A stretch of 20,298 nucleotides of DNA from a virus: positions 1 through 20,298 of the IMG/VR virus record IMGVR_UViG_3300025156_000029. One strand, given 5' to 3'. The notes below the pieces were generated by a model. It searched no databases, was not told the DNA's origin, and saw only the letters and a list, made by a program, of their open reading frames with translations. Position numbers and translations under genes: made by a program. Below are positions 2,178 to 18,405 of this stretch, piece by piece; within the stretch, counting starts at the first letter, position 1, and the number at the start of each line of letters is the position of its first letter.

Positions 2178-2398
2178 TTCCTCATATCCTTGAAGCCCTT
2201 CTTAGTGAAGCTGAGAGTCTTCATACATAGGTTTAAAGTGATCTTGCCTCCTTCTTGTTGTGGATCAGAAAACAGCGGGCATTCGTCACCACAGAAAGCT
2301 ATCCGCGATGATGTGAAGGAGAATGGGCACCTCATCCTTTTAACTCTGGTCTTCCTCTTAATCCAGAGGCCGCCGTCTTGATCTATATAGCCCTCCAT
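2174..2398 (-). CDS. Hypothetical Cys-containing protein, 74 aa
   Basis: The protein has four cysteines (a CPF near residue 24, then FCGDEC and LC), a basic patch KRKTRVKRMR at 14-23 and a basic C-terminus. This could be a small zinc-binding or disulfide domain, but the spacing fits no motif that I can name. The ATG at 2398 is chosen because AAAGGAG lies 5 bases upstream; the longer reading to 2443 would overlap the preceding gene much further. The remaining overlap is 41 bases. Confidence 0.6.
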   Translation of the reverse strand: MEGYIDQDGGLWIKRKTRVKRMRCPFSFTSSRIAFCGDECPLFSDPQQEGGKITLNLCMKTLSFTKKGFKDMRK

Positions 2399-2567
2399 TA
2401 TAGCTCCTTTCCAATAATAGTATGTTGTTGTTCTCGGACTCAATTATGTCACCAACCCTAGCATCAACGATAACCGTCTGTTGTGGGGTGATGGCCTTAA
2501 CCCCAGATGCGTCCATCATACAGTCGTAGCCACAGACGATAATGAGTCCGACACGTTTAATCTTCAT
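2358..2567 (-). CDS. Hypothetical protein, 69 aa
   Basis: Unrecognised. The sequence is beta-rich (VGLIIVCGY, QTVIVDARVGDII, NILLLERSY) and ends in a basic RSRRRPLD tail, suggesting a small barrel fold. The ATG at 2567 lies inside the end of the 56-aa gene upstream, so it is likely translated by coupling; no strong Shine-Dalgarno is present. A TTG at 2579 is an alternative start. It resembles the neighbouring short beta-rich proteins in size and style. Confidence 0.55.
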   Translation of the reverse strand: MKIKRVGLIIVCGYDCMMDASGVKAITPQQTVIVDARVGDIIESENNNILLLERSYNGGLYRSRRRPLD

Positions 2568-2727
2568 CAGTGATAACAACCTTGTCAGCTAGGATTTTCA
2601 AGGTAACTGTAGGCTTCTGCGGAACAGAGGTTGACACATCGAAATCAACGACGCCTGGAATGTCAACTTCATTCACCAGAACCCTCATCAATTTGTCGTT
2701 TGGGATTAAGATCTTTACGTCCGTCAT
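2557..2727 (-). CDS. Small hypothetical protein, 56 aa
   Basis: The minus strand is open from the ATG at 2727 to the TAA at 2557. The product starts MTDVKILIPNDKLMRVLVNE and continues with VDIPGVVDFDVS and TVTLKILADKVVITDED. AGGTGA lies 6 bases before the ATG, a good Shine-Dalgarno. The pattern is a compact beta-sandwich-like protein with an acidic tail. It fills the gap between the one-helix membrane protein and the next small gene, overlapping both. I cannot assign a function. Confidence 0.65.
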   Translation of the reverse strand: MTDVKILIPNDKLMRVLVNEVDIPGVVDFDVSTSVPQKPTVTLKILADKVVITDED

Positions 2728-2911
2728 AGATAATCACCTCACCTTTCTCAACATTTATATATGGATACTTCCCTGTGACCGTCACTCTTGGAACTTCGCG
2801 GTCTCTCACTGCCTCAACAATGGTCTGCAGAGAAGAGACCTCTTGATGCAGCGTCCAAATCCAGCAAAAGAGAGCTATGATGATGGCCGCGATTGTTGCT
2901 TTTGACGCCAT
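2669..2911 (-). CDS. Small single-pass membrane protein, 80 aa
   Basis: After a short MASK start, residues 6-20 (TIAAIIIALFCWIW) form one membrane helix, followed by a short amphipathic helix (HQEVSSLQTIVEAVRD) and a polar C-terminal part. It could be a type II anchored protein with its C-terminus outside the cytoplasm, as in small spanin-like or exclusion proteins. The ATG at 2911 is selected because GGAG lies 8 bases upstream. The start overlaps the upstream zinc-ribbon gene by 37 bases. Confidence 0.65.
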   Translation of the reverse strand: MASKATIAAIIIALFCWIWTLHQEVSSLQTIVEAVRDREVPRVTVTGKYPYINVEKGEVIIYDGRKDLNPKRQIDEGSGE

Positions 2912-3243
2912 GCAACGATCTCCTTTGTCGTGAACAAGGTTGAGCAAGAGTTACACCTTCGTTTGCGAACCTGGCCATCAGATTTTGGGTACGATGTTAT
3001 GACTTTTGAACCAGCATGACCGCAGTTTGGACAAGGTGGCCCTGATTTAACGTTGTTCGCCCCTCCACGTTCGCGTACTGGAAGCCCAAGAGAGGCCATT
3101 TTAGCTCGCAAGGTCATCCAATTTACAGCTAGGTAGTCTCCCATATCCCTCAAGGAGAGGCCCTTCATGTAATAAAGGTCCACCAACATCTCCTTCGGGG
3201 TAGAGTACCCTGAGCTCATCGCTATTTTTGCCCAATTTATCAT
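2875..3243 (-). CDS. HTH protein with NrdR-like zinc ribbon
   Basis: The 122-aa product has two parts. Residues 15-57 look like a helix-turn-helix (KEMLVDLYYMKGLSLRDMGD, then LAVNWMTLRAKMASLGLP). Residues 71-110 form a zinc ribbon with Cys71-x2-Cys74 and Cys97-x2-Cys100; between and after them lie SYPKSDGQVRKRRC and LFTTKE. This closely follows the N-terminal zinc ribbon of the ribonucleotide reductase repressor NrdR (CPxC, V-x-S-R, RRRxC-x2-C, RFTTxE), but the ATP-cone of NrdR is absent. A DNA-binding regulator is likely. ATGA overlap couples it to the gene upstream. Whether it controls reductase genes is inference. Confidence 0.7.
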   Translation of the reverse strand: MINWAKIAMSSGYSTPKEMLVDLYYMKGLSLRDMGDYLAVNWMTLRAKMASLGLPVRERGGANNVKSGPPCPNCGHAGSKVITSYPKSDGQVRKRRCNSCSTLFTTKEIVAWRQKQQSRPSS

Positions 3244-3449
3244 CTTCCCTCCAAACGATCAAGGGCGGCCTTTGCATATGCTATGACCTTATGGCCCTCT
3301 ACTTGGCCGAATGTGCCCCATAAGGTTCTTCTGCGCGCCCCTTTGATATAGTTCCTGAGAATCTGCTCAACGGGGACCTTGCCTGAGGTAAACTCCTCTC
3401 GGACCAGAGAGTCTATGTACCTCATCTCATTGTCAGTCGTCCATCCCAT
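3240..3449 (-). CDS. Hypothetical protein, 69 aa
   Basis: A small helical protein of a type common in phage accessory regions: W3, YIDSLVREE at 11-19, ILRNYIKGARRRTLWG at 30-45 and a helical basic C-terminus (VIAYAKAALDRLEGR). I cannot give a function. AAGGTG lies 7 bases before the ATG at 3449. The start lies within the in-frame continuation of the DUF4406-like gene, overlapping its distal stop by 17 bases, as expected if that gene was intact when the operon took shape. Confidence 0.65.
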   Translation of the reverse strand: MGWTTDNEMRYIDSLVREEFTSGKVPVEQILRNYIKGARRRTLWGTFGQVEGHKVIAYAKAALDRLEGR

Positions 3450-3543
3450 GTTTAATCACCTTCAAATGTCTTCGTGCTGCTTCAACCTCAGCTCTAGCTC
3501 CTTCGCTCTCCTCCCACCCTGGGAGGGTGTAGATGATGTCGGC
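3433..3543 (-). pseudogene. In-frame 3' remainder of the DUF4406-like gene
   Basis: Directly after the TGA at 3544-3546 the same frame stays open for 36 codons to a TGA at 3433. It reads ADIIYTLPGWEESEGARAEV, then EAARRHLKVIKHGMDD. This is the expected C-terminal half of the DUF4406/deoxyribosyltransferase-like fold: the D-x-I-x-x-L-P-G-W-x-x-S-x-G-A-x-x-E-x-x-x-A motif holds the conserved Trp, Ser and Glu. It has no start codon or ribosome binding site of its own. It is either a dead remnant cut off by a nonsense change or sequencing error, or is reached by UGA readthrough. Confidence 0.75.
3510..3526 (-). other. Hairpin 17 nt downstream of the in-frame TGA
   Basis: On the coding strand CCTCCCA, GGG and TGGGAGG form a perfect 7-bp stem with a 3-nt loop. 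It starts 17 nt after the TGA that interrupts the DUF4406-like gene. No T-run follows, so it is not a terminator. The bases also encode the conserved L-P-G-W motif, so the structure may be a by-product of coding. Confidence 0.4.
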
Positions 3544-3750
3544 TCACCTTACTAAGAGTTCAATGTCTCCATCAAGAAAGGTTCGATCTGGAGCAACTCC
3601 GTCGAAAAACGCTGTGTTTTTGTGTGGGCATATGGTTGGAAACCCGCGAGCCCACCATTTTGCAGCAGCCCTTCCTGCGCGGTTGATGTTCTCCATGACT
3701 TCGTAGGCCGTTCTCGCCCTATACGGCCCTGCTATGTAGATGATCGTCAC
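3544..3750 (-). CDS. DUF4406/deoxyribosyltransferase-like protein, cut at an in-frame TGA
   Basis: The 68-aa reading frame holds the N-terminal half of a DUF4406-type nucleoside 2-deoxyribosyltransferase-like fold: YIAGPYRA at residues 5-12, NINRAGRAAAKWWARGF in the middle, ICPHKNTAFFDG at about 40-51 and LDGDIELLVR at the end. Relatives use this fold to act on nucleosides or nucleotides. The frame stops at a TGA where homologues usually continue with a residue such as Cys, Ser or Ala before the D-x-x-x-L-P-G-W motif, which is present in frame just downstream. The GTG at 3750 is preferred: GGAGG lies 5 bases upstream and it overlaps the upstream stop as GTGA. ATG 3762 is possible. Confidence 0.75.
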   Translation of the reverse strand: MTIIYIAGPYRARTAYEVMENINRAGRAAAKWWARGFPTICPHKNTAFFDGVAPDRTFLDGDIELLVR

Positions 3751-3947
3751 GGTTTCCTCCATTGAAGGCTTTCATTTCTCCTAAGGTTGTCCATCTCTTG
3801 CCCAAGGATGAGACCTACTTCAAGCCAAACTCCATGAATCGCTGCAACGAGGTCGCTGCTAGCTTGACTTGGGCTCTCTTGCCTAGTCCTCGCCAGGCTC
3901 ATTATCTGGGTCGCTATCGCCTCTGGCGTCAATTTTGATGACTCCAT
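3747..3947 (-). CDS. Hypothetical protein, 66 aa
   Basis: Unrecognised, mainly helical: residues 7-21 (TPEAIATQIMSLART) and 31-56 (SDLVAAIHGVWLEVGLILGQ and on) are likely helices, with a polar Ser/Gln linker between them. The ATG at 3947 has GAGG 9 bases upstream, but the first 64 bases overlap the preceding gene, so an internal start near 3902 cannot be excluded. Its stop overlaps the GTG of the DUF4406-like gene. Confidence 0.55.
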   Translation of the reverse strand: MESSKLTPEAIATQIMSLARTRQESPSQASSDLVAAIHGVWLEVGLILGQEMDNLRRNESLQWRKP

Positions 3948-4128
3948 CTTTTATATCCTCGATGGCGTGCTTGTAGAAGTGAATCCCTATAGCTTTGTAC
4001 CACTCACCCCAATAGGCCTTTGCCTGCCTGTATTTCACAGGATCTTTGTCGAGAAAGATTGGGATGAGAATGTCGTGGTAGCTCCAGTGAGCCTCAACCA
4101 GTTCCTTTGCCCTCTCCTGCCATTCCAT
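3883..4128 (-). CDS. Hypothetical protein, 81 aa
   Basis: No family recognised. The product is rich in aromatic residues and charged helices (EWQERAKELVEAHWSYHDIL, AKAYWGEWYKAIGIHFYKHA) and ends with a strongly acidic tail (DARGDSDPDNEPGED). The ATG at 4128 has GGAG 6 bases upstream; an ATG at 4140 would add MEKK. Its start overlaps the end of the TSCPD gene by 35 bases. Confidence 0.6.
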   Translation of the reverse strand: MEWQERAKELVEAHWSYHDILIPIFLDKDPVKYRQAKAYWGEWYKAIGIHFYKHAIEDIKDGVIKIDARGDSDPDNEPGED

Positions 4129-4453
4129 CTTTTTCTCCATAAAGTTTCTCAAGGACCTTCCCAACGGCGTCAGGGATTGAGAGGACCAGGCCAAATGGAG
4201 TTGAAATGGGGTCCCCTCCTCCGATGCCTTTGAGCTGGTCTATAACGTCGGTGACAGGAATCCCATGACGTAGGGCTAAGGAAGCAAGGCGGCCTGTGAC
4301 CTCAGCCTTTGCCATGATCGACTGGCCTGATTTGCCTATGACCGCAAAGACCTCGAAGGGCTTCCCATCTTTTTCTGTCACCGTCACATACATGTTACCG
4401 TAGCCTGTACGGATTTTTGTGGTGCGGCTTGTAAGCGTTTCTGGTCTCTCCAA
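4094..4453 (-). CDS. Free-standing TSCPD domain (NrdJ C-terminal-like)
   Basis: The 119-aa product matches the TSCPD module found near the C-terminus of adenosylcobalamin-dependent ribonucleotide reductases. Visible hallmarks are RPETLTSRTTKIRTGYGNMY with VTVTE (residues 3-27), FEVFAVIGKSG, a helix with GRLASLALRHG, then DVIDQLKGIGGG and FGLVLSIPDAVGKVLEKL. The catalytic barrel, the B12-binding part and the usual Cys-rich tail are absent, so this protein cannot reduce ribonucleotides alone. It may assist or regulate a reductase encoded elsewhere, or have another role. The start is a TTG at 4453 with AAGGAT 10 bases upstream; no other start lies between it and an upstream stop. Confidence 0.8.
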   Translation of the reverse strand: MERPETLTSRTTKIRTGYGNMYVTVTEKDGKPFEVFAVIGKSGQSIMAKAEVTGRLASLALRHGIPVTDVIDQLKGIGGGDPISTPFGLVLSIPDAVGKVLEKLYGEKDGMAGEGKGTG

Positions 4454-4601
4454 GGCGAATCCATCCTTTCCAGTTGTTTCGGGCTGCGAAGGACAGGCAG
4501 ACCCTATATCTGTCGTAGTTCGTCATCGAGCAGATCGTGCAAGTTAGTGGTCTGTGGAGAAATGGTGTTGGAGCTATCGTACATCCTTCATTTGAGAACA
4601 T
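4395..4601 (-). CDS. Small putative zinc-binding protein, 68 aa
   Basis: Unrecognised. Residues 20-35 include CTICSMTNYDRYRVC, a C-x2-C-x10-C pattern, and another Cys lies at residue 7; two adjacent histidines lie near the basic C-terminus. A small zinc site is plausible. The ATG at 4601 has GAGGGTGA upstream with good spacing; a longer reading to 4706 would run through the palindrome and has no ribosome binding site. It overlaps the TSCPD start by 59 bases, which is unusually long here and lowers confidence. Confidence 0.5.
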   Translation of the reverse strand: MFSNEGCTIAPTPFLHRPLTCTICSMTNYDRYRVCLSFAARNNWKGWIRLGETRNAYKPHHKNPYRLR

Positions 4602-4674
4602 CGTCACCCTCTTATTTTTATGTGTGTACGCTGAGATGGTATTGGGTTTTAAACTATTTCGGTCGGGGCGGTTC

Positions 4675-4707: not shown

Positions 4708-4950
4708 TTCGGTTCCTGTTGAGATGATTATGGACTCGCTGAGGTCTGATCTTATCCACAACTCCTCGATAATGTCCCACAGGAGCTCTTTGACAGCCTT
4801 ACCTCCCTCATTTTCTATGTCATAGACGTATTGGTCCACTTCCCACCCTCCCTCAATGTCGATGAACCTTGTAATGACGATACCATCTCTTGTTCTTGCG
4901 AGGACTAAGGTCCCCGCTGGGTTCAGAACTGGAAAATCTATCCTATCCAT
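4699..4950 (-). CDS. Hypothetical protein, 83 aa
   Basis: An acidic protein without a recognisable family. The N-terminal half is beta-rich (FPVLNPAGTLVLARTRDGIV and ITRFIDIEGG) and the C-terminal half helical (GGKAVKELLWDIIEELWIRS). It ends in an acidic GTEDE tail whose codons overlap the palindrome at 4675-4707. The ATG at 4950 overlaps the end of the HEXXH gene by 8 bases. Confidence 0.65.
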   Translation of the reverse strand: MDRIDFPVLNPAGTLVLARTRDGIVITRFIDIEGGWEVDQYVYDIENEGGKAVKELLWDIIEELWIRSDLSESIIISTGTEDE

Positions 4951-5266
4951 GACCTATCTTCTCCACTATTCTCCTAAGAAGGTTTGTGAGCTGCCTGTCT
5001 GATAGAGCTGCGAACAGCTTAGGCTCGGTCTCCGCAACCCATTTTTCGTTATCGTAGTCAATGAGATGAAGAGCCTCGTGAACAAGGGTGAGGAAGAACT
5101 CTTCATTCTCCCTCGGATTGATCTCAATGACGACCTTATCTCCACTCGTCGCGTCGCATATCCCGCAAAGTCCTTTTAGCTTGCTGTTGAGTCCAAAGTG
5201 AATGGTCTCGTTCTTGAGAGCCCTGTAGATCTTGTGGAGGAGGGTTGTAGCTTCTTTCTTTGTCAT
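4943..5266 (-). CDS. Small HEXXH zinc metallopeptidase-like protein
   Basis: The 107-aa protein has a zincin motif, His63-Glu64-Ala65-Leu66-His67, in a hydrophobic helix (LTLVHEALHLIDYD). A likely third metal ligand follows in WVAETEPKLFAAL (Glu79 or Glu81). An extra CGIC pair lies at 34-37 and VVIEINP at 45-51 is probably a core strand. Size and layout recall the short SprT/IrrE-like metallopeptidases of phages, but the family cannot be fixed. Glu64 would be the catalytic base. AAGG lies 6 bases before the ATG; it follows the phosphoesterase by one base. The substrate is unknown. Confidence 0.7.
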   Translation of the reverse strand: MTKKEATTLLHKIYRALKNETIHFGLNSKLKGLCGICDATSGDKVVIEINPRENEEFFLTLVHEALHLIDYDNEKWVAETEPKLFAALSDRQLTNLLRRIVEKIGHG

Positions 5267-5267
5267 C

Positions 5268-6128
5268 CTAAACCTTCGGTCTGATCTTATCTACCCTGAT
5301 GATCTTCCTATCCCTCACAACGACGACTGCCCATCCGAGTTCGATTGGGTCCATCTCAGCTCGTTCTGCATACCCAGAGATCCCAAGGCGCGACATCTTC
5401 TGAAAGGCTCCTGTATTCACGTACCATCGGAGGTTCTCCGGAATGTATTCGGCGGTTTGGTCAACCTGGGTAAACGCTTGCTTGATGTCATAGCCATCGT
5501 CTTTAAGGTAGAGCCTCGCTTTTGGCTCGCACACCAAAAGCTTGTGTGTATGCCCCTTGCTCATTAGAAGTGCGTCCCCTTGCTTCATCTTAAGGTGGCG
5601 TTTGAGAATGAGCTTCATGTTGCTTTCTCTTCGCTCAGGGTCGTCTGCGGTGGAGTTAATCATTTTCCTTCCATGAGTTGCGTAATGTTTGTATATGAGC
5701 CCTCCATGCTTATCCTTGTAGATCAGTTTGCACGAGTAAGTGCCAAATGGGACCTTGAGCATAGACGCCATTTCCGCTGATATGTCCCCAAACCTCCAGA
5801 GCTTCCATTCATGATTCCCTTCGAGAAGGGCTATCAGCTTTGATCTGATTGGCTTGAGCATGTCGACAGCATCTTTCATTTGCTTGAGTGGAAACGGTTC
5901 CTTCGTTGTCCTAATGTCGTATCGAGGGTCATCAACTGCAATAGCCTCGATCAAGTCCCCATGACAGACTGCGTAGTTATGCTTAGCCGCAAGTCCTTCA
6001 TAAGGTGACTCTATCATATCCATAAATGCGTTGAAGGCTTTCTGTGAAAAAAGGACCGATCCAATGTGAAGGTCTCCAAAAAGAAAAAGGTTATGACTGA
6101 CTGGTAAAGTCTTTGTTATTAGCTGCAA
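5268..6128 (-). CDS. Calcineurin-like metallophosphoesterase
   Basis: All core motifs of the family are present: GDLHIG (Asp19, His21), HGDLIEA (Asp58), EGNHE (Asn105, His106), THG (His152) and GHTH (His193, His195). These bind two metal ions and cleave phosphoester bonds, in nucleotides or nucleic acids; the substrate here is unknown. I chose TTG at 6128 (286 aa): GGGAGG lies 8 bases upstream, it places the first strand just before GDLH, and it leaves a 10-base overlap with the preceding gene. An ATG at 6203 would add 25 residues but overlap that gene by 85 bases. Phage copies are common in replication or accessory regions. Confidence 0.88.
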   Translation of the reverse strand: MQLITKTLPVSHNLFLFGDLHIGSVLFSQKAFNAFMDMIESPYEGLAAKHNYAVCHGDLIEAIAVDDPRYDIRTTKEPFPLKQMKDAVDMLKPIRSKLIALLEGNHEWKLWRFGDISAEMASMLKVPFGTYSCKLIYKDKHGGLIYKHYATHGRKMINSTADDPERRESNMKLILKRHLKMKQGDALLMSKGHTHKLLVCEPKARLYLKDDGYDIKQAFTQVDQTAEYIPENLRWYVNTGAFQKMSRLGISGYAERAEMDPIELGWAVVVVRDRKIIRVDKIRPKV

Positions 6129-6406
6129 AACGTTATCCTCCCTGCACAGTTGACGCATGACTTCATAGTGGGGTCTCTGAGAGGAGCTCCACAGATGGTG
6201 CATCTCCCTTCTGCTCTGCGTCTAGCTCGTACAGCTGCATGATACTTAAGGCGAACTGACCTCGTTTCTGCGTACCGCCTCCGGACCTGGTAAGCGTGCG
6301 TTACTGAATGGATCGCACATCTTGTCCTCCCCGGAAGGGCTGGCCTTGAGCAGTCTACACATAGCCCAGCGGCTTTATGTCTAGCCTTGTAAGAGCTATC
6401 TCCCAC
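6119..6406 (-). CDS. Double zinc-finger protein
   Basis: The 95-aa basic protein has two similar metal-binding modules. The first is Cys16-x2-Cys19, Cys30-x2-His33 (LCVDCSRPALPGRTRCAIH); the second is Cys69-x2-Cys72, Cys84-x2-Cys87 (RCTICGAPLRDPTMKSCVNC). Between them lies a very Arg-rich helix (about 40-66). This suggests nucleic-acid binding, as in the zinc-finger part of HNH-associated phage proteins, but no nuclease motif is present. The GTG at 6406 has AGAGGA at good spacing and overlaps the upstream stop as TAGTG; a GTG at 6412 is an alternative. Confidence 0.7.
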   Translation of the reverse strand: MGDSSYKARHKAAGLCVDCSRPALPGRTRCAIHSVTHAYQVRRRYAETRSVRLKYHAAVRARRRAEGRCTICGAPLRDPTMKSCVNCAGRITFCS

Positions 6407-6564
6407 TACCACTTCCTCTTGATACTGTCTATCATTTTGTAGAGGCGCATGAGCTCAGCGCGTTTAGCTTTGAGGAGCTCTTCTAAATGCCTGACGTTGT
6501 TACGGTAGATCAAAGCTCCAATGATGAACCCTATTGCTAGGCCTCCGATGAAGCCGAGGATCAT
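6406..6564 (-). CDS. Single-pass membrane/coiled-coil protein, 52 aa
   Basis: Residues 2-19 (ILGFIGGLAIGFIIGALI) form one Gly-rich membrane helix, and residues 24-50 a charged helix (VRHLEELLKAKRAELMRLYK and on) suited to a coiled coil. This layout resembles small phage spanin-like or membrane accessory proteins, although the class cannot be proven from 52 residues. The ATG at 6564 overlaps the protease stop as ATGA and has GGGGGTGA upstream; a longer start at 6624 would lie deep inside the protease gene. Its place right after the holin and protease genes suggests a role at the inner membrane. Confidence 0.65.
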   Translation of the reverse strand: MILGFIGGLAIGFIIGALIYRNNVRHLEELLKAKRAELMRLYKMIDSIKRKW

Positions 6565-7352
6565 TCTTTCACCCCCAAAAGATGGTCGACGAATCCGTAC
6601 TCCAAGGCTTGCCTCCCGTTGCACCAGAACTCTTTCTTCTTGATCTTCTCGTCTAGCTCTTCCTTGGTAAGTTTACTTCGGGATGCAAGCCACTCGTTGG
6701 CTGTATCCTGAAGGTGTCTAAGAACCTTCATTTCTTCCTCTGATGAGGATGGTGTAGCTATCGAGAACATTTTGAATGACATAAGCTCATGCCACATGAG
6801 TTCTGCGGTTGGACTCGCGAATCTGTATCCTATTGTTCCTGACACTGCTATCAGGAAACCTGCACTAGCTGCGAAACCATAAACTCTTGTCTCTACGATG
6901 CGGCCTGGTTTAGCTGCCTCCCACTCATTCATCAGTCCAGCAACTCGCCACGCTTCGAAAAGAGAACCCCCTGGGCTATGGAGCTCAAGAACTGCATGGC
7001 TGATGGCATACCTGTCGAGGTAGTCGAAGAACTTGAGCAGGTCATCTGATAGGCTCTCTCCAACATCTCTTATCACATAGTACCCATAACCTTCTCTAAC
7101 GAACATGCCATAGCAAGGGTAAGCTCTGTTTTCATCAGGGTCTATTTCCTTTATGCCAAACTCGGCTCCCTTCTTGTGACAAATTAAACAGTCTGAGACC
7201 TTCCCGACTATGTTCGTGTGCGGACAGAATCCGTGCTTCTCTTCCTCCTGAGCTATTGGCTGTGAATCCTGGTGGGGTGGGTCGGCAAAGAGAAGAGAGC
7301 ATACGACCACTACGGCTACTAACGAAACAATTAAGTGTGATAGTGCTTTCAT
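6561..7352 (-). CDS. Exported ClpP-like serine protease with CXXCH segment
   Basis: Residues 1-23 are a signal peptide (MKALSHLIVSL, then VAVVVVCSLLFA). Residues 43-59 carry Cys43-Pro-His45 and Cys55-x2-Cys58-His59, a possible zinc site or heme-c motif. From about 90 onward the protein follows ClpP/S14 and related crotonase-fold proteases: VLELHSPGGSLFEAW (121-135), the nucleophile region GFAASAG with Ser163, and MWHEL with His188. The end KEFWCNGRQALEYGFVDHLL aligns with the ClpP Asp region, but the Asp position appears to be Glu241. Export of a ClpP-like enzyme is unusual. The start has AAGGAG 6 bases upstream and overlaps the holin-like gene as ATGA. The target is unknown; head protease function is unlikely given the signal peptide. 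Confidence 0.8.
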   Translation of the reverse strand: MKALSHLIVSLVAVVVVCSLLFADPPHQDSQPIAQEEEKHGFCPHTNIVGKVSDCLICHKKGAEFGIKEIDPDENRAYPCYGMFVREGYGYYVIRDVGESLSDDLLKFFDYLDRYAISHAVLELHSPGGSLFEAWRVAGLMNEWEAAKPGRIVETRVYGFAASAGFLIAVSGTIGYRFASPTAELMWHELMSFKMFSIATPSSSEEEMKVLRHLQDTANEWLASRSKLTKEELDEKIKKKEFWCNGRQALEYGFVDHLLGVKE

Positions 7353-7906
7353 TTCTTACTCCTTAAAAACGGCAAGGTGAGCCCTGCCTTGTCAAAAATT
7401 GATCTTGTTGCTGTATACCCGACGAAGCCAGCTCCGAACAGCATCACAATATAGTACCCTAACTCCCTGATAAAGTTCAGCACTTCAGTTGTCGGGTTGA
7501 GACAGAGGGCGGCTGCAGCTGATCCGATGTAGTATGATGCTGTCAAGTAGAACAGTCTGCGCAAGATCATTGGTCTAGTCCGCCTGACATATGGATCTTC
7601 TGATTGGGCCTCAACCTTCTGGAGATCTTTCTGGTCGGACATCTCTCCATATTCTAGCCGTGACTGTTCAAGGGCTATCTGAGCGAGCCTGATCTCTTTG
7701 TCAGCAAAGATCTGTTCGAGCTTAACTCTAGTTTCCGGTGGGACTTCATCTTTAGCTAGTGATGATGTGATGTCGTCTGCAAGCTTCTTAGCTTCCTCGA
7801 TGGCCTTTGGAGGCTCCTTGCCGAACAGTGTAGCTATGTCTGACCATATCTCAGGGATCTTGGGCAAAACTGAGAGTCCTAAAGCAAGTAGAGCTGGAAG
7901 TGCCAT
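7349..7906 (-). CDS. GTA-type 3TM holin-like protein
   Basis: The 185-aa product fits the holin family described for gene-transfer-agent release. It has a hydrophobic N-terminus (2-20), a long charged helical middle (31-100), the motif DPYVRRTRPM at 104-113, and two membrane helices at about 118-136 and 150-168. The RP-M motif just before the membrane pair is typical. Such proteins are thought to make lesions in the inner membrane so that endolysin can leave. The ATG at 7906 is chosen because AAGGAGG lies just upstream and it follows the upstream stop by two bases; an ATG at 7954 has no such site. It is coupled to the exported protease. Confidence 0.7.
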   Translation of the reverse strand: MALPALLALGLSVLPKIPEIWSDIATLFGKEPPKAIEEAKKLADDITSSLAKDEVPPETRVKLEQIFADKEIRLAQIALEQSRLEYGEMSDQKDLQKVEAQSEDPYVRRTRPMILRRLFYLTASYYIGSAAAALCLNPTTEVLNFIRELGYYIVMLFGAGFVGYTATRSIFDKAGLTLPFLRSKK

Positions 7907-7908
7907 GG

Positions 7909-8403
7909 TTACCTCCTTTTGAGTGAGATGCTGAAGCATCCTCTTCTCTTCCATCCTATTGAGAGGTTGAGTCGTCCTAAGTGGAGTATGTACCTGGGGA
8001 AGATGGTGTTCTTAAGGGATACTTCAATGTATTCGTTGTCAATTATAACTTCGTTAGTGTTGACTTTGATGGCAAGATAAACTGAGCCTAGGTCTGGAAG
8101 TGGATTCCTCATATGCCACCTGACGTATCTGTAAAGCTCAGACTTTCCTCTCCACAAGTAACTCTTTCTTCCAGTTGGAATTGATGAGAACCTATTTGTC
8201 CAGAAGGCTAAAATAGGGTGAACCCATCGTGGAGCTGTCTTGAGGATGTCTGAGTCGTAGGTGGCCCATCTGACTTTTTTGATGATCCCTCTTGTGACTA
8301 GAATTGTGCCTACTGCAGCTGCAACAGGGAGGCCAATTCCGTAGTATACTAGGCCAAATCCTAGTGTCAGCGGGAACACAGCTAGCGCGTAGGTAACTTT
8401 CAT
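7909..8403 (-). CDS. Phage membrane protein with two N-terminal helices
   Basis: Residues 4-22 (TYALAVFPLTLGFGLVYYG) and 23-39 (IGLPVAAAVGTILVTRG) are two adjacent membrane helices. The rest is a soluble, basic domain with the striking segments WVHPILAFWTNRFSSIPTGR and YRYVRWHMRNPLPDLGSVYL, then a beta-rich C-terminus. I recall similar layouts among phage proteins of unknown function next to lysis genes, but can name no activity. The ATG at 8403 has AAGGAGCT directly upstream. The gene ends two bases before the holin-like start, which places it in the lysis cluster. Confidence 0.65.
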   Translation of the reverse strand: MKVTYALAVFPLTLGFGLVYYGIGLPVAAAVGTILVTRGIIKKVRWATYDSDILKTAPRWVHPILAFWTNRFSSIPTGRKSYLWRGKSELYRYVRWHMRNPLPDLGSVYLAIKVNTNEVIIDNEYIEVSLKNTIFPRYILHLGRLNLSIGWKRRGCFSISLKRR

Positions 8404-8580: not shown

Positions 8581-8774
8581 CACCTCTCTTCTCGCTGTGT
8601 TTTCCGTGCTTTAGGGCAGTTTTTCTTTGTTGTGCATAGCGTTCGTGTTATTTTACATTTGAATCCGTTTACGGTCCAACCAAGACCATCCCTGACCCAA
8701 TTTTTACACCTGTATGGGCATCTGTCATTTGTGGTCGTTATTACGATCGCCCATTGTTGTTCATTTTGGATCAT
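8580..8774 (-). CDS. Small Cys-rich protein, 64 aa
   Basis: The protein has five cysteines (19, 23, 40, 47, 53) in a basic background: RCPYRCKNWV, FKCK, TLC and KKNCPK. This may be a small metal-binding or disulfide fold. No family is recognised. The start is uncertain: ATG at 8774 gives a 14-base overlap with the peptidase gene, ATG at 8783 adds three residues and ATG at 8813 adds thirteen; none has a strong ribosome site. The stop forms TGATG with the coiled-coil gene downstream. Confidence 0.5.
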   Translation of the reverse strand: MIQNEQQWAIVITTTNDRCPYRCKNWVRDGLGWTVNGFKCKITRTLCTTKKNCPKARKTQREER

Positions 8775-9075
8775 ATTCGACATGGATATGCGTTTGTTCA
8801 AGTACGATGTCATAATCTGGTCCTAGTTCTTTTCTCAAGGCTGACACCACATCTACAGAGCTAGCTTTAGAGGTCATACCATGAGATCCTGGCAAAGCCA
8901 CGTCTACTGCTTGCCCTGCGTAATGCAGAGATCCCGGGGAATGATTTCCTTCGTCACAGGAAGTCAATACCGCCTCATGCCCTGCCACAGCCTTGTAAAC
9001 CCTGTCAATTGGCCCCAGGGCCCGCCTAATTTCCCTTTTGAGCCTCCTGGGATACACTCCCATCTTCACCAGCAT
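8761..9075 (-). CDS. Minimal M15-type peptidase, probable endolysin
   Basis: The 104-aa protein shows the D-Ala-D-Ala carboxypeptidase (M15/VanY-like) pattern: residues 45-58 read HSPGSLHYAGQAVD, giving metal ligands His51 and Asp58, and residues 95-100 THIHVE give His98. Such enzymes cut peptide bonds in peptidoglycan cross-links. It consists of the catalytic domain only, with no wall-binding domain and no signal peptide, so a holin would be needed for release. It is shorter than most M15 endolysins. GAGG lies 10 bases before the ATG at 9075; an ATG at 9063 is possible. It overlaps the upstream coiled-coil gene by 50 bases and sits in the lysis cluster. Confidence 0.75.
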   Translation of the reverse strand: MLVKMGVYPRRLKREIRRALGPIDRVYKAVAGHEAVLTSCDEGNHSPGSLHYAGQAVDVALPGSHGMTSKASSVDVVSALRKELGPDYDIVLEQTHIHVEYDPK

Positions 9076-9797: not shown

Positions 9798-10604
9798 TTA
9801 GCTTAGGCTTACATCAAAATCCCCTGCTGAGAACCTGTAGGTGTCACCGTCGCCAACCTCCTGATCTGTAACCCCATTATCATAAAAGAGCAAATTGCCC
9901 GCAGTTGAAGCATCAACTAAGGCGGTAGCGACAATAGTTCCCCAGGAGCCTCCTGATGCTGGCCCTATGTCGATGTTATCGTCATTGTCAGTCGTACCGC
10001 CCGAAACCGTGCCCCAAGTAGGTGCAGAGCCTCCATTAGGGTTGACCAGTTTACGTCCGTAACCATTTCCTGATGGTTCTGTTATGGTCGAGCCTGTGTC
10101 GCTGTCACTGATGGTTGCTGTAGTCAAAGCCACGTATGTGGAGGGAGCAGTATAAGACTGATTGCGAAATGCGAAATCAAGTAGAACATTAGCTAGATAG
10201 TTAGATATATACCCGCTGCTAAACTCGACATACACCTCTCCAGATGCAACCGACGGTGTGTTACCTGAAACTACATTCTTCGATGAAGCAAGAGAGCCAT
10301 GGGCTAGCATGTTTCCACCTGTTGCAGCATCAAACAGTGCCCAGTGTGTGATCGTGCCCCAATCGGCTGTAGCTTGAGGGAAAGTTACATCTGCATTTTG
10401 CGTAACCCTCCGTGATGATGCAGCCCCAAAGGTGATAGCTTGCCTAGCGTAACCACCTCCAGATGGCTCGCTCAAGCCAGATCCATCATCTAACGGATCT
10501 GCTGTAGAAAGTCCAAGGTAAACTGTCGATGGCGGCGAGTATGTGTTCTGATTCAACACATGATCTAACAGTTCATTTTCCAAGTAATTAGATATTGATC
10601 CCAT
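9798..10604 (-). CDS. Gp80-like tail fibre protein with internal duplication
   Basis: The 268-aa protein contains two copies of one domain. Residues 2-131 start ISNYLENELLDHVLNQNTYS with PPSTVYLGLST; residues 132-268 start ISNYLANVLLDFAFRNQSYT with APSTYVALTT. Each goes on with EPSGxGYxR, a W-G-T-I strand pair and a G-N-x-L segment. This pattern is that of the Gp80-like phage tail fibre or head decoration family, which normally has one copy per protein. The second copy has drifted and contains a Gly/Asp-rich insert. GGAGG lies upstream of the ATG. It probably adds to the virion surface; the exact position is unknown. Confidence 0.7.
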   Translation of the reverse strand: MGSISNYLENELLDHVLNQNTYSPPSTVYLGLSTADPLDDGSGLSEPSGGGYARQAITFGAASSRRVTQNADVTFPQATADWGTITHWALFDAATGGNMLAHGSLASSKNVVSGNTPSVASGEVYVEFSSGYISNYLANVLLDFAFRNQSYTAPSTYVALTTATISDSDTGSTITEPSGNGYGRKLVNPNGGSAPTWGTVSGGTTDNDDNIDIGPASGGSWGTIVATALVDASTAGNLLFYDNGVTDQEVGDGDTYRFSAGDFDVSLS

Positions 10605-10608
10605 TTCT

Positions 10609-12513
10609 TTATACCTCCTCGATTGTTCGCTCTGGTGTGAGCGATGTAAAGGTCCGCTCAGGAGTAAGCGAGGTCAAAGTACGCCCTACCGTGAGCGATT
10701 CAATAGTTGTATCCACAATTAATCCTAAACCTGCTGTTATCAAGTTGATTGCGCTGGTGAGTGTTGTAGCGTCTACCTGTGCTGTTGCTTCACGCAGAAC
10801 TGCAAGCAGAGCATCTGATGTAGTCGTTCCCACTGAAATAGCTGCTGAAAGTGATCGTAGAATATTGAGCGCTGCCTGGGCGGTTTGTGTTGAGACTGTG
10901 ATTTGAGCCTGACCAATCTTGATTAAAACCAGATCAATATCGTCTGGCGTAGCTGTAGCTGCCTGGATGGAGGCTGTGAGCGAATAGATTAGGCCAAGAG
11001 TGACCGCACTGGTGACTGATTGTGCCTGAATGTCTGCTGTGACTGGCCTCAACACTGCCAGGGCTACATCAGACGTAGATGTCTGGGTGGCGATGTTAGC
11101 TATGGCCTGGATCAAGCCAGCTATGGAAAGCTCTACTGAGTCTGAGGCAAAGCTCTGAGCGTTTATGGCCGCTGATAAGGCACGAAGTACAGCTAGATCT
11201 ATAGTACTGGTATTAGTCGCTGCAAGTATGTTTGCAATAGCGGTGATCAAACCTACTACTGTGAGGTCAACATCATCCGCTGTATAGCTTTGAGCCTGGA
11301 TGTCTGCTGAAACTGACCTCAGTACGTTAAGCAATGCTGTTGAGGTGTTTGTTTGCCCTGTGATATTGGCAAGTGCGGTTTTGAGCAGTGCAAGAGTTAT
11401 GGCGCTTGTGTTCGTGACTGCTTGAATGTCTGCAATGGCTGTTAATAGTAAGTTAAGTTGAGGTGTAGCTGTATTAGTCTGGGCCTGGATTGAGGCCGAC
11501 AATGCTCTGAGCACAGCCAGGGTAGCAGAACTCGTGGAGCTGGCGGATTGGATATTGGCTGAACCAGTGATGGTCCCCCCTGCCGCCACATACTCATCTG
11601 CCCCAATGTCCCAGGGAGCAGAGCGGGTCTCGCCGTCAATGTCGTCGGTAAAGGATAGATATGGGTCGGATGAAAGGTCTGTGCCATAATCTTTTGCACC
11701 TGTGTCTGATGAATCAAGGTGGTAATTATCATTAACTTCGTCAACAAAAGTAAAGGTTTGATTAGCTCTGCCATAGCTACCCCAATCATCACCTGTATCA
11801 TCGTCAGAAGCATTGTAATCAGATCCAGAAGCTAGACCATAAAAACAAGCAGATGAATATCCTTTACAAAGACAATTTTTGGCTAAGCATCTTAAAATCC
11901 CGTGGTTGTCAGAACCAACTGCGGTAATGTTATACGCGTATTGTGAGGACGATGTATCATCATCATTATCGATTGCTCTCCAACAATTAATAATAATGCT
12001 ATTCCACATATACACAATACGACTAGAAAGAAATGGTTTAATGCCCCGTTCTGCATTTCGAATAATGCTGTACCCAATATATGTATAGTTACTATAAATA
12101 TGTATTCCTGATGAACCAGAAGGCTTACTAGTACAGTCAATTTGCAATCCAAAAATCTTTGTATATTCTTCTCTAATAGCTAATGCGTCTCCAGATGTAA
12201 CAACAATGCGGTAAGCGCTCGTATTCCACTTCCCATCATGCCTGTAGTTCTCGTTTGGGTCAGTCCAAATCTTGATGTATCTAGTATTATCAGTTGTCCA
12301 ACCGTCAATGGTCACAGCAGTAGTGTCAGCAGCTCCTGTTGAGCACCTACAATCAGCAACAGCAATGAGGTCTGCCCCTACGAGGTCACCGTCACCAGAC
12401 ATAGAGGGATAATTCGATTGGGTACAGCTTCCGAAGTCCGCTTCCCAAGCAGCCAGAGACGAGTAATCCCCTCCGCCTCCTGTATCAACTATTTTTACAA
12501 CTTCAGTTGCCAT
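10609..12513 (-). CDS. Beta-helix-like tail fibre/spike with repeat stalk
   Basis: The 634-aa protein has three parts. Residues 1-309 look like a right-handed parallel beta-helix of the pectate-lyase type: short strands with Ile/Val and Asn/Asp turns, as in TKIFGLQIDCTS, GIHIYSNYTYIGYSIIRNAE and MWNSIIINCWRAID, ending near DIGADEYV. Such domains bind or cut surface sugars; no catalytic residues can be assigned. Residues 315-594 are 13 repeats of about 21 aa with consensus A-x-I-x-A-x-T-x-T-S then L-A-V-L-R. The last 30 residues hold SLTPERT repeats. It lies among fibre genes and probably faces the host. It starts one base after the upstream stop. Confidence 0.75.
   Translation of the reverse strand: MATEVVKIVDTGGGGDYSSLAAWEADFGSCTQSNYPSMSGDGDLVGADLIAVADCRCSTGAADTTAVTIDGWTTDNTRYIKIWTDPNENYRHDGKWNTSAYRIVVTSGDALAIREEYTKIFGLQIDCTSKPSGSSGIHIYSNYTYIGYSIIRNAERGIKPFLSSRIVYMWNSIIINCWRAIDNDDDTSSSQYAYNITAVGSDNHGILRCLAKNCLCKGYSSACFYGLASGSDYNASDDDTGDDWGSYGRANQTFTFVDEVNDNYHLDSSDTGAKDYGTDLSSDPYLSFTDDIDGETRSAPWDIGADEYVAAGGTITGSANIQSASSTSSATLAVLRALSASIQAQTNTATPQLNLLLTAIADIQAVTNTSAITLALLKTALANITGQTNTSTALLNVLRSVSADIQAQSYTADDVDLTVVGLITAIANILAATNTSTIDLAVLRALSAAINAQSFASDSVELSIAGLIQAIANIATQTSTSDVALAVLRPVTADIQAQSVTSAVTLGLIYSLTASIQAATATPDDIDLVLIKIGQAQITVSTQTAQAALNILRSLSAAISVGTTTSDALLAVLREATAQVDATTLTSAINLITAGLGLIVDTTIESLTVGRTLTSLTPERTFTSLTPERTIEEV
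10612..10703 (-). repeat. Short SLTPERT coding repeats
   Basis: The C-terminal codons of the beta-helix protein encode SLTVGRTLT, SLTPERTFT and SLTPERTIE in tandem, with clear similarity at DNA level (27-bp units, each with a GAGCG-like block on the plus strand). This may be a short attachment or trimerisation tail. It lies after and differs from the 21-aa repeats. Confidence 0.7.
10733..11571 (-). repeat. Thirteen coding repeats of about 21 aa
   Basis: This stretch encodes residues 315-594 of the beta-helix protein as about 13 diverged units, for example AIADIQAVTNTSAITLALLK, ALANITGQTNTSTALLNVLR and LSASIQAQTNTATPQLNLLL. Two units carry a 3-aa insertion (VDLTVVGLI, VELSIAGLI). DNA identity between units is moderate, so the array is old or under selection rather than freshly expanded. 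It probably forms a beta-structured stalk. Confidence 0.8.
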
Positions 12514-16754: not shown

Positions 16755-17164
16755 CTATAGGCCTTCTCTATCTCGAAAAGTCTCAAGTTGACTAGCTCAA
16801 CACCCTTGTCTTCAAGTGCTGTTAATACAAGCGTTTGTCCTGCATGAATACCGAAAACTTTTTCCCCACTTGCCTTCGCCCTAAGTTCTAGAATGTCTCC
16901 TGCCGAAGCCCTTTCCGGCGGTATTTCATCACCTAATTGCCCCAAAAGCTCTGAAAAGATAGCTTCAGCTTTTGTCTGATCCTCAATCCATAACTGAGGA
17001 TAGCTTTCTTTTGTGATACTTCTAAATGCTGTTGGTGGGTTAACGCCGACATGCTCAGCAGCACACATAATCAGGCTTAGGCAGTCAAAGCCTTCTTTTC
17101 TGCTCCACCCTCCAAGCTTGTAAGGAGCCCCTCTGAATTTATCTGTCAAAAGCCTGATATTCAT
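16739..17164 (-). CDS. NlpC/P60 family tail peptidase
   Basis: The 141-aa protein shows the NlpC/P60 cysteine peptidase pattern: GWSRKEGFDCLSLIMCAAEH with catalytic Cys28, the PPERASAGDILELR strand region (82-95) and His107 in FGIHAGQTLVL. In lambda-like and GTA tails this enzyme is part of the tip and locally opens peptidoglycan during entry. The third polar residue cannot be fixed. The ATG at 17164 overlaps the DUF2163 stop as ATGA; a longer reading to 17218 lies inside that gene and is rejected. It overlaps the tip protein gene by 16 bases. Confidence 0.85.
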   Translation of the reverse strand: MNIRLLTDKFRGAPYKLGGWSRKEGFDCLSLIMCAAEHVGVNPPTAFRSITKESYPQLWIEDQTKAEAIFSELLGQLGDEIPPERASAGDILELRAKASGEKVFGIHAGQTLVLTALEDKGVELVNLRLFEIEKAYRWAKK

Positions 17165-18405
17165 GACTTCGGCTGTCTCCCCCACCAGATTTCCTTGTCC
17201 ATTATGGACGGTAGCCACCGGAAGCCACCAAAATTAGCGGTATTGCCCAGGGCTGAACACCGCGCATAACTGCGATCACACCAAGTTTCAGAACCTGTAT
17301 ACCCACATTCTGGCCCTTTAAACACGCGCCATCTACATGACGCAGGATGACGAGAGAGTGGCTTACGAGCCCACTGCACATTCATATCCGCAATTGTCAT
17401 CACCAATTGGGACTCGTCTAATGACCACTTGTCAATCTGCCCGTTAAACAGTATTATAGCCCCTGCAGACATATCTTGGCCTGGGTTGTTGTAGAGATAT
17501 GAGATCTCGGCGTCTGAAAGTGCTCTATCATATATTCTGACCTCATCAATCCAATATTCTGACGGGGGGTCTGGCCTACCTATCCTAAGCTGATAACCCG
17601 TATCAAGAGTTGCCCCCACTAGGTCTTTTGTGGCGACAAGTTCTGCGTTAACATAAAGTTTGACCTGAGAGCCGTCATAAACGCCTGCCAAAAACACCCA
17701 ATCGGTATTATTGTTGTGATTATATCTAGCTAGATACGATGTACCACCTTGCGCTATCCCAAAATTCCAATAATTAACACTGCTATAAAGCAGCCATCCT
17801 GAGTTAACCCAATTGTTTCTTACGAAATTGTGGTAATCCCCATGGCTAGCAACCTTCGCCCAAGCACAGGCAGTTACATAGCTAGATGATAGCGGGATAG
17901 ATGATGGTAAATTTACATAATCACCGGATGCGTCAAAATCTAAGCAATGTCCGCTAACACCAGATGCCCAAGTGGGATCACCATATATAGTCCCATCATT
18001 CCCATTCCCACTTCTATCGTGCAGGGTTGTCCCCGATCCTTCATCAAAATCATAAGCCGCCACCAAACCCCAAGGCTGGCCAAGAATATGCCAATCATTG
18101 TCCATTAACACCTGCCTCAATATGACTGGCGACCCCTGCGGTGTACCACCGACAAAGATTGACGTAAGAACTGAATTGAGGTTGTCCAGGGTAATGTCAA
18201 ATCCATCCACCATACCAGTGGAATTATACCTAATAGAGCCAACCTGCATACCTATGGGCTCATAGGTGTTGCCGTTATAGTTGATCGGAACGTCGCAGTT
18301 TGTGTATCTGTAGGTCGTGCCGTCGATAGTCATCTCTAAGAGAAGAAACGGCCTCAACTCTTCAGCAGCTAACGCACTCAAGACATCTGTATTTATGCTA
18401 CGCAT
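17161..18405 (-). CDS. DUF2163-like tail hub protein with inserted LamG domain
   Basis: The 414-aa protein has three parts. Residues 1-110 are the DUF2163-like N-terminal domain (FLLLEMTIDGTTYRYTNCDV, YEPIGMQVGSIRYNSTG, FDITLDN). Residues 112-309 form a complete LamG/concanavalin-type domain: LVAAYDFDEGSGTTLHDRSG, CLDFDASGDYVNLP, WVFLAGVYDGSQVKLYVN and YWIDEVRIYDRALSDAEI. Residues 312-414 return to the tail fold with Cys357, Cys367, Cys376 and Cys383, plus NFGGFRWLPSIMD and WWG. The N- and C-terminal parts belong to GTA-like tail hubs; the lectin-like part is an insertion that may bind glycans at the cell surface. It overlaps DUF2460 by 8 bases. Confidence 0.82.
   Translation of the reverse strand: MRSINTDVLSALAAEELRPFLLLEMTIDGTTYRYTNCDVPINYNGNTYEPIGMQVGSIRYNSTGMVDGFDITLDNLNSVLTSIFVGGTPQGSPVILRQVLMDNDWHILGQPWGLVAAYDFDEGSGTTLHDRSGNGNDGTIYGDPTWASGVSGHCLDFDASGDYVNLPSSIPLSSSYVTACAWAKVASHGDYHNFVRNNWVNSGWLLYSSVNYWNFGIAQGGTSYLARYNHNNNTDWVFLAGVYDGSQVKLYVNAELVATKDLVGATLDTGYQLRIGRPDPPSEYWIDEVRIYDRALSDAEISYLYNNPGQDMSAGAIILFNGQIDKWSLDESQLVMTIADMNVQWARKPLSRHPASCRWRVFKGPECGYTGSETWCDRSYARCSALGNTANFGGFRWLPSIMDKEIWWGRQPKS

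Follow-up and report, generated by a model that had tools for sequence, protein, structure and literature searches.

A family of predicted exported ClpP-like serine peptidases with an N-terminal CxxCH module in uncultivated viruses

Sequence comparisons across uncultivated viruses indicate that exported-type phage ClpP-like proteins carrying a CxxCH motif form a real, previously unrecorded family. The member from which we started is encoded in a 20,298-base IMG/VR virus fragment (hereafter the window; G+C ~47%), in which a tail module of lambda/GTA-like type is accompanied by a lysis region and by small genes of early type, almost all of them minus-strand. We favour, with a probability of about 0.5, the reading that this protein is a Sec-exported, periplasmic serine peptidase of ClpP fold with a haem- or metal-binding N-terminal cap, which would degrade envelope proteins late in infection or at lysis.

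The predicted peptidase and its signal peptide

The open reading frame is intact and begins with ATG, with AAGGAG six bases upstream. The frame itself, the SPGGS segment (residues 126-130), the serine and histidine of the active site, and the two Cys/His segments (C43-P44-H45 and C55-L-I-C-H59) were all located where the initial annotation had put them. The gene and its parts are as follows.

6561..7352, minus strand: predicted gene for an exported-type ClpP-like serine peptidase, 263 amino acids (Pfam, phrog_94, AlphaFold2 and Foldseek)
7359..7364, minus strand: Shine-Dalgarno sequence AAGGAG of this gene (from the sequence)
7284..7352, minus strand: predicted signal peptide, residues 1-23, with likely cleavage at LLFA/DPP, a type I site by eye (hydrophobicity)
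7176..7226, minus strand: N-terminal CP-x10-CxxCH module, residues 43-59 (family alignments and AlphaFold2)
6864..6866, minus strand: catalytic Ser163 (FAASAGF), assigned by alignment and invariant in 19/19 rows
6789..6791, minus strand: catalytic His188 (LMWHEL), assigned by alignment and invariant in 19/19 rows
6630..6632, minus strand: Glu241, aligned with ClpP Asp171 (phmmer alignment to 6cfd)

The ClpP fold that had been proposed for this protein is borne out by profile and model alike. PF00574 (CLP_protease) is its only Pfam match (residues 92-259, 4.8e-17; 62.8 bits, where the cut-off is 20.2), and the best profile family in a PHROG search is phrog_94, head maturation protease (9.9e-24). 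An AlphaFold2 model built from 19 family rows averages a pLDDT of 85.5; the value is 90 or higher over the greater part of the ClpP core and about 70-76 in the N-terminal module. Foldseek matched a first, 8-row model to ClpP structures (1.7e-11, probability 1.00) and the better AlphaFold2 model to viral ClpPs (4.6e-15). Judged by the model together with the profile match, the product is a ClpP-fold protein.

Alignment likewise supports the assignment of Ser163, His188 and Glu241 as the triad: the serine, the histidine and the SxGG motif do not vary among the 19 rows, and Glu241 falls opposite the aspartate equivalent to Asp171 of E. coli ClpP. The glutamate had been noted for this protein. It is present, and it is typical of the family and not unique to the window, with Glu in 16 of the rows, Asn in two (L099/L100) and Asp in one (L127). 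That Ser163, His188 and SxGG are kept between members that share as little as 39% identity is what a working serine peptidase would show, and activity is probable on this strong sequence evidence.

The signal peptide described in the initial annotation is supported by hydropathy, a crude measure, which gives the window protein a 12-residue hydrophobic core with a mean Kyte-Doolittle value of 3.4. Such a core is present in all 18 family members, with values of 2.5-3.7 over 12 residues; by the same measure none of 13 ordinary phage ClpP proteins exceeds 1.3. Hydropathy and charge together give each of the 18 the n-h-c layout of a signal peptide when set against these controls, and a Shine-Dalgarno-like sequence stands ahead of most of the start codons from which the signal peptides are read. 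The window protein is very probably an exported enzyme. Lipoprotein export, considered on account of Cys18 in its hydrophobic stretch, was rejected by eye, as there is no good lipobox and most members have type I sites.

An N-terminal CP...CxxCH module

Every member with a complete N-terminus contains CP-x(7-12)-CxxCH, at the same aligned place in 17 of the 17 distinct members. C43, P44, C55, C58 and H59 are invariant and the XX residues vary; CxxCH arises in 0.3% of shuffles of the mature window protein. Part of the Cys/His cluster noted at the outset is therefore conserved and part is not: His45 is found in the window alone, the family reading CP[K/I/V/G/Y/H], so that the conserved ligand-type residues are C43, C55, C58 and H59. 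In the AlphaFold2 model the module forms a hairpin and then a helix that bears CLIC. When fusions of the module to other proteins were sought with one exact DNA pattern, the five matches were all known family members.

An exported protein with CxxCH would normally be taken to attach c-type haem covalently, and predicted export and CxxCH occur together in each of the 17 distinct members whose N-terminus is complete. From the sequences, the module may hold either a haem with Cys or no distal ligand, or zinc on the four conserved residues, or a disulphide, and we regard haem as having an even chance of being the true answer. The proposal that the module is a structural zinc finger or a disulphide clip, which would leave the enzyme reading intact, falls a little short of even odds. 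Arguing for it are the presence of exactly four conserved ligand-type residues within about 20 residues, the modelled hairpin and CxxC helix, which resemble small zinc folds, and the lack of any conserved distal His or Met in the family alignment, where Cys43 is the only invariant candidate nearby. Counter to this are the c-type haem rule for exported proteins, the strict C..CH pattern around variable XX residues, and a spacing that resembles the magnetochrome P-H-X5-9-CX2CH (PMC3971196).

The magnetochrome (PH-X5-9-CX2CH) is described as the smallest mono-haem cytochrome known (PMC3971196), and in the magnetosome protein MamE it is joined to a putative serine protease (PMC3905215). The window protein, alone in its family, fits the spacing exactly (PH-X9-CLICH). 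We nonetheless rejected a magnetochrome assignment under the published pattern (PMC3971196), because His45 is not conserved, other members having CPK, CPI, CPV, CPG or CPY; the family position before the proline is an invariant Cys and not the conserved His of the magnetochrome type. MamE, which is HtrA-type, resembles the window family in being extracytoplasmic and in combining a serine protease with a CxxCH mono-haem module in one protein (PMC3905215, PMC3971196). Its trypsin-like fold, PDZ domains, tandem modules and PH distal ligand are absent here, where a ClpP fold carries one module with CP in place of PH, and the two are not homologous.

Extent of the family and its genomic setting

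Members were recovered from IMG/VR contigs by a scan for the core motif GFAASAGF and two alignment-based scans. These yielded 19 further loci, which make up 16 independent lineages when near-copies are merged and the window is included; a third scan gave no new members. The member contigs are up to 119 kb long, with G+C of 33-60%, and their proteins are 38-64% identical to that of the window. In a tree drawn from ClpP-core columns only, the family forms one clade against the head and cytoplasmic phage ClpPs (support 100/99). Values of dN/dS in three close pairs are 0.13, 0.09 and 0.03 (0.027 at the lowest), with the synonymous distance near saturation in one pair and ~1 in another, and these sequence comparisons indicate that the family is under purifying selection. 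A tblastn search of 50,697 phage and 72,556 plasmid records returned only ordinary ClpPs, at ~33% identity or less, and no family members, and a scan of ~85,000 species genomes with two exact peptide patterns found no cellular or prophage member. The family is thus known so far only from uncultivated viruses. Our literature search found no report of exported phage ClpPs.

Other phages (L129, L130, L131, L132) encode cytoplasmic ClpP-like proteins that form a sister set; these have AMSAGF motifs and neither signal peptide nor CxxCH. The 97-kb phage of L097 carries a second exported-type ClpP-like gene (L111, 1495-2217, minus strand), the product of which is a lipoprotein with the lipobox LCSC. 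It is like the window family in being an exported-type ClpP-like phage protein, and unlike it in lacking CxxCH and belonging to another sequence family. Given this lipoprotein, exported ClpP-like proteins may be a wider theme in phages.

The neighbours of the gene in the window are the following.

7349..7954, minus strand: GTA-type holin-like gene, 3TM (PF11351, 3e-5; phrog_3427, holin, 3.4e-9; phrog_1544, 5.9e-13)
6406..6564, minus strand: small transmembrane and cationic-helix ORF, with a possible internal ATG start at 6564 (from the sequence)
7909..8403, minus strand: membrane protein of the lysis cluster (DUF7338 at 0.046 only)
8761..9075, minus strand: putative M15-like endolysin gene in the lysis cluster, assigned by eye (HH_signal at 0.003 only; this fold is related to M15 peptidases)

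The reported position between a holin-like gene and a membrane gene is confirmed. The ClpP-like gene shares an ATGA overlap with the holin-like gene upstream, and its stop does so with the possible internal start of the downstream ORF, so the three genes look translationally coupled. As listed, the downstream ORF runs from 6406 to 6624 (minus strand), overlaps the ClpP-like stop and encodes one transmembrane segment with a cationic helical tail (phrog_3879, 2.1e-5); an antiholin or pinholin-like partner is a possible role for its product.

Across the family the association with lysis is enriched and not universal. The suggestion that relatives always sit beside GTA-type holins fails: PF11351 occurs in four of 18 records and adjoins the family gene in two of them (the window and L125), or in three if one counts the gene that follows it in L128, which belongs to the same PHROG as the window holin (phrog_1544). 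A GH24 lysozyme gene adjoins it in L105, L108 and L128, and an M15 peptidase gene lies 0.85 kb upstream in L102. Nor is the gene always beside some holin or endolysin, since a lysis gene was detected at a distance of 1 kb or less in 6 of the 16 lineages, against 1.3-1.8 expected (P 0.0001-0.004, a rough value, as the contigs are fragments, several of them short, and one parameter was assumed). Lysis genes are 2-3.3 kb away on the opposite strand in L097/L064 and L104. Elsewhere the family gene follows a tail sheath gene (L099/L100), lies near a ribonucleotide reductase gene (L097), stands beside unassigned genes (L101/L103 and L109) or is followed by a phrog_22312 moron/membrane protein gene (L107), and no lysis gene was detected nearby in L098, L101/L103, L106, L109 or L127. 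Since in roughly half of the lineages no lysis gene was detected close by, lysis cannot be the sole role. The genomic association in some lineages suggests, tentatively, a part in lysis or in late events at the envelope.

Three other genes of the window, all on the minus strand, deserve mention. At 17161-18405, a tail protein of the baseplate-hub/gpL type carries an inserted laminin-G/concanavalin-like domain (PF13385, 6.4e-22, residues 159-302); homologues of the protein in L005, L006 and L008 are 211 amino acids long and seemingly without this domain. The ORF at 4094-4453 is a stand-alone TSCPD domain (PF12637, 9.9e-22), a domain usually found at the end of ribonucleotide reductase, and it groups together with the L097 ribonucleotide reductase ORF. 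A small protein encoded at 2875-3243 has an NrdR-like zinc ribbon (PF22811, 7.8e-9).

A possible role in the envelope and its alternatives

Under the favoured reading, Sec would export the protein to the cell envelope, that is, the periplasm, where the CP...CxxCH module would sit at the place of the axial, ATPase-docking face of ClpP. The module would most likely hold a metal or one c-type haem, and it may stabilise or gate the chamber. To our knowledge neither a Clp ATPase nor ATP is to be expected beyond the cytoplasm, and cleavage of small or unfolded envelope proteins should therefore proceed without ATP. In late infection the substrates would be proteins of the envelope or exported proteins that have misfolded; both oligomer and substrate we infer. 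Apparent translational coupling to the holin and predicted production with the lysis genes make degradation of envelope proteins in late infection and lysis the most likely function. Processing of envelope proteins, removal of exported immunity factors and exclusion of superinfecting phages, the roles first suggested for the protein, would each be possible. A more detailed scheme, which we think has a small chance of being right, is that in this phage-only family a minimal mono-haem c-type module, possibly His/Cys ligated, caps a self-compartmentalised ClpP barrel in the periplasm, and that the redox state, or the membrane potential being lost when the holin triggers, switches on envelope proteolysis during lysis.

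With ClpP and the phage ClpP head proteases (PF00574, PHROG 94, NF045542) the family shares the fold, SxGG, xASAG, the His, an acidic third position and the Ax..YGFVD tail. It differs in its signal peptide, its CP...CxxCH, its Glu for Asp and its place outside the head module, and it would have no Clp ATPase where it acts. SppA, NfeD-1510 and COG3904-type proteins are ClpP-fold serine peptidases that work free of ATP at the membrane or outside. Likeness to these is seen in weak NfeD1b_N matches in 8 members and SppA_dom at 0.009, whereas the window family shows no visible S49 Ser-Lys dyad, is nearest to S14/ClpP, carries the CxxCH module and is phage-restricted.

Could the gene nevertheless be a head maturation protease misplaced near lysis genes? 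We reject this reading as very improbable, in line with the initial annotation. The assignment of the best profile family, phrog_94, speaks for it; the NCBIfam head-protease model NF045542 falls well short of its cut-off (48.8 bits against 120). Against it, the L105 phage carries both forms. Genes for the portal (1143-2360), a head protease of canonical ClpP type (2971-3915) and the major capsid protein (4750-5985) stand in one module, and the exported form is separate, at 9992-10732, directly after the GH24 lysozyme gene. A relative of the window, G006 (one tail protein 98% identical, another 83%), encodes, in an ORF of 676 aa, an apparent HK97-type fusion of an S78-type protease to the capsid protein (PF04586, 6.7e-5, below the curated cut-off), and no ClpP was found in this relative. 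No family member was located between portal and capsid genes, the family forms a separate clade, and all members with a complete N-terminus have a signal peptide. In L105, two HNH-type ORFs (2357-3088 and 3919-4635) flank the head protease gene and interrupt the portal-protease-capsid order.

The main rival is a non-lysis accessory role, in which an envelope-acting 'moron' protease would trim receptors, secretion proteins or stress-sensor proteins and so block superinfection or take over the envelope. Its sporadic occurrence in unrelated phages fits such a role, as do its absence from G006 and G003, despite tail proteins 83-98% identical to those of the window, the location of several members outside lysis clusters, and the moron/membrane gene next to it in L107. 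G006 also has a homologous holin, and no ClpP; closely related phages have therefore gained or lost the exported gene, which is an accessory. The proximity to lysis genes in 6 of 16 lineages and the ATGA coupling to the holin in the window tell against a role apart from lysis, which we consider rather unlikely. Still less probable is a non-proteolytic protein, such as a redox carrier or haem carrier that is exported, or a scaffold with the ClpP fold. Folds of the crotonase superfamily can lose protease function, and here the third catalytic residue varies among E, N and D while CxxCH is invariant; counter to this, Ser163, His188 and SxGG persist unchanged even between the most distant members.

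The routine annotation of ClpP-like genes in phages is head maturation protease or ATP-dependent protease. The family described here is a well-defined subset of them, apparently built for the cell envelope and marked by an invariant CxxCH, for which automatic annotation should change, and with its haem/metal motif it can be put to a clean biochemical test. If these proteins act in the envelope, phages would own an extracytoplasmic, ATPase-independent ClpP, which may represent a step in lysis beyond holin, endolysin and spanin, or an enzyme of envelope takeover.
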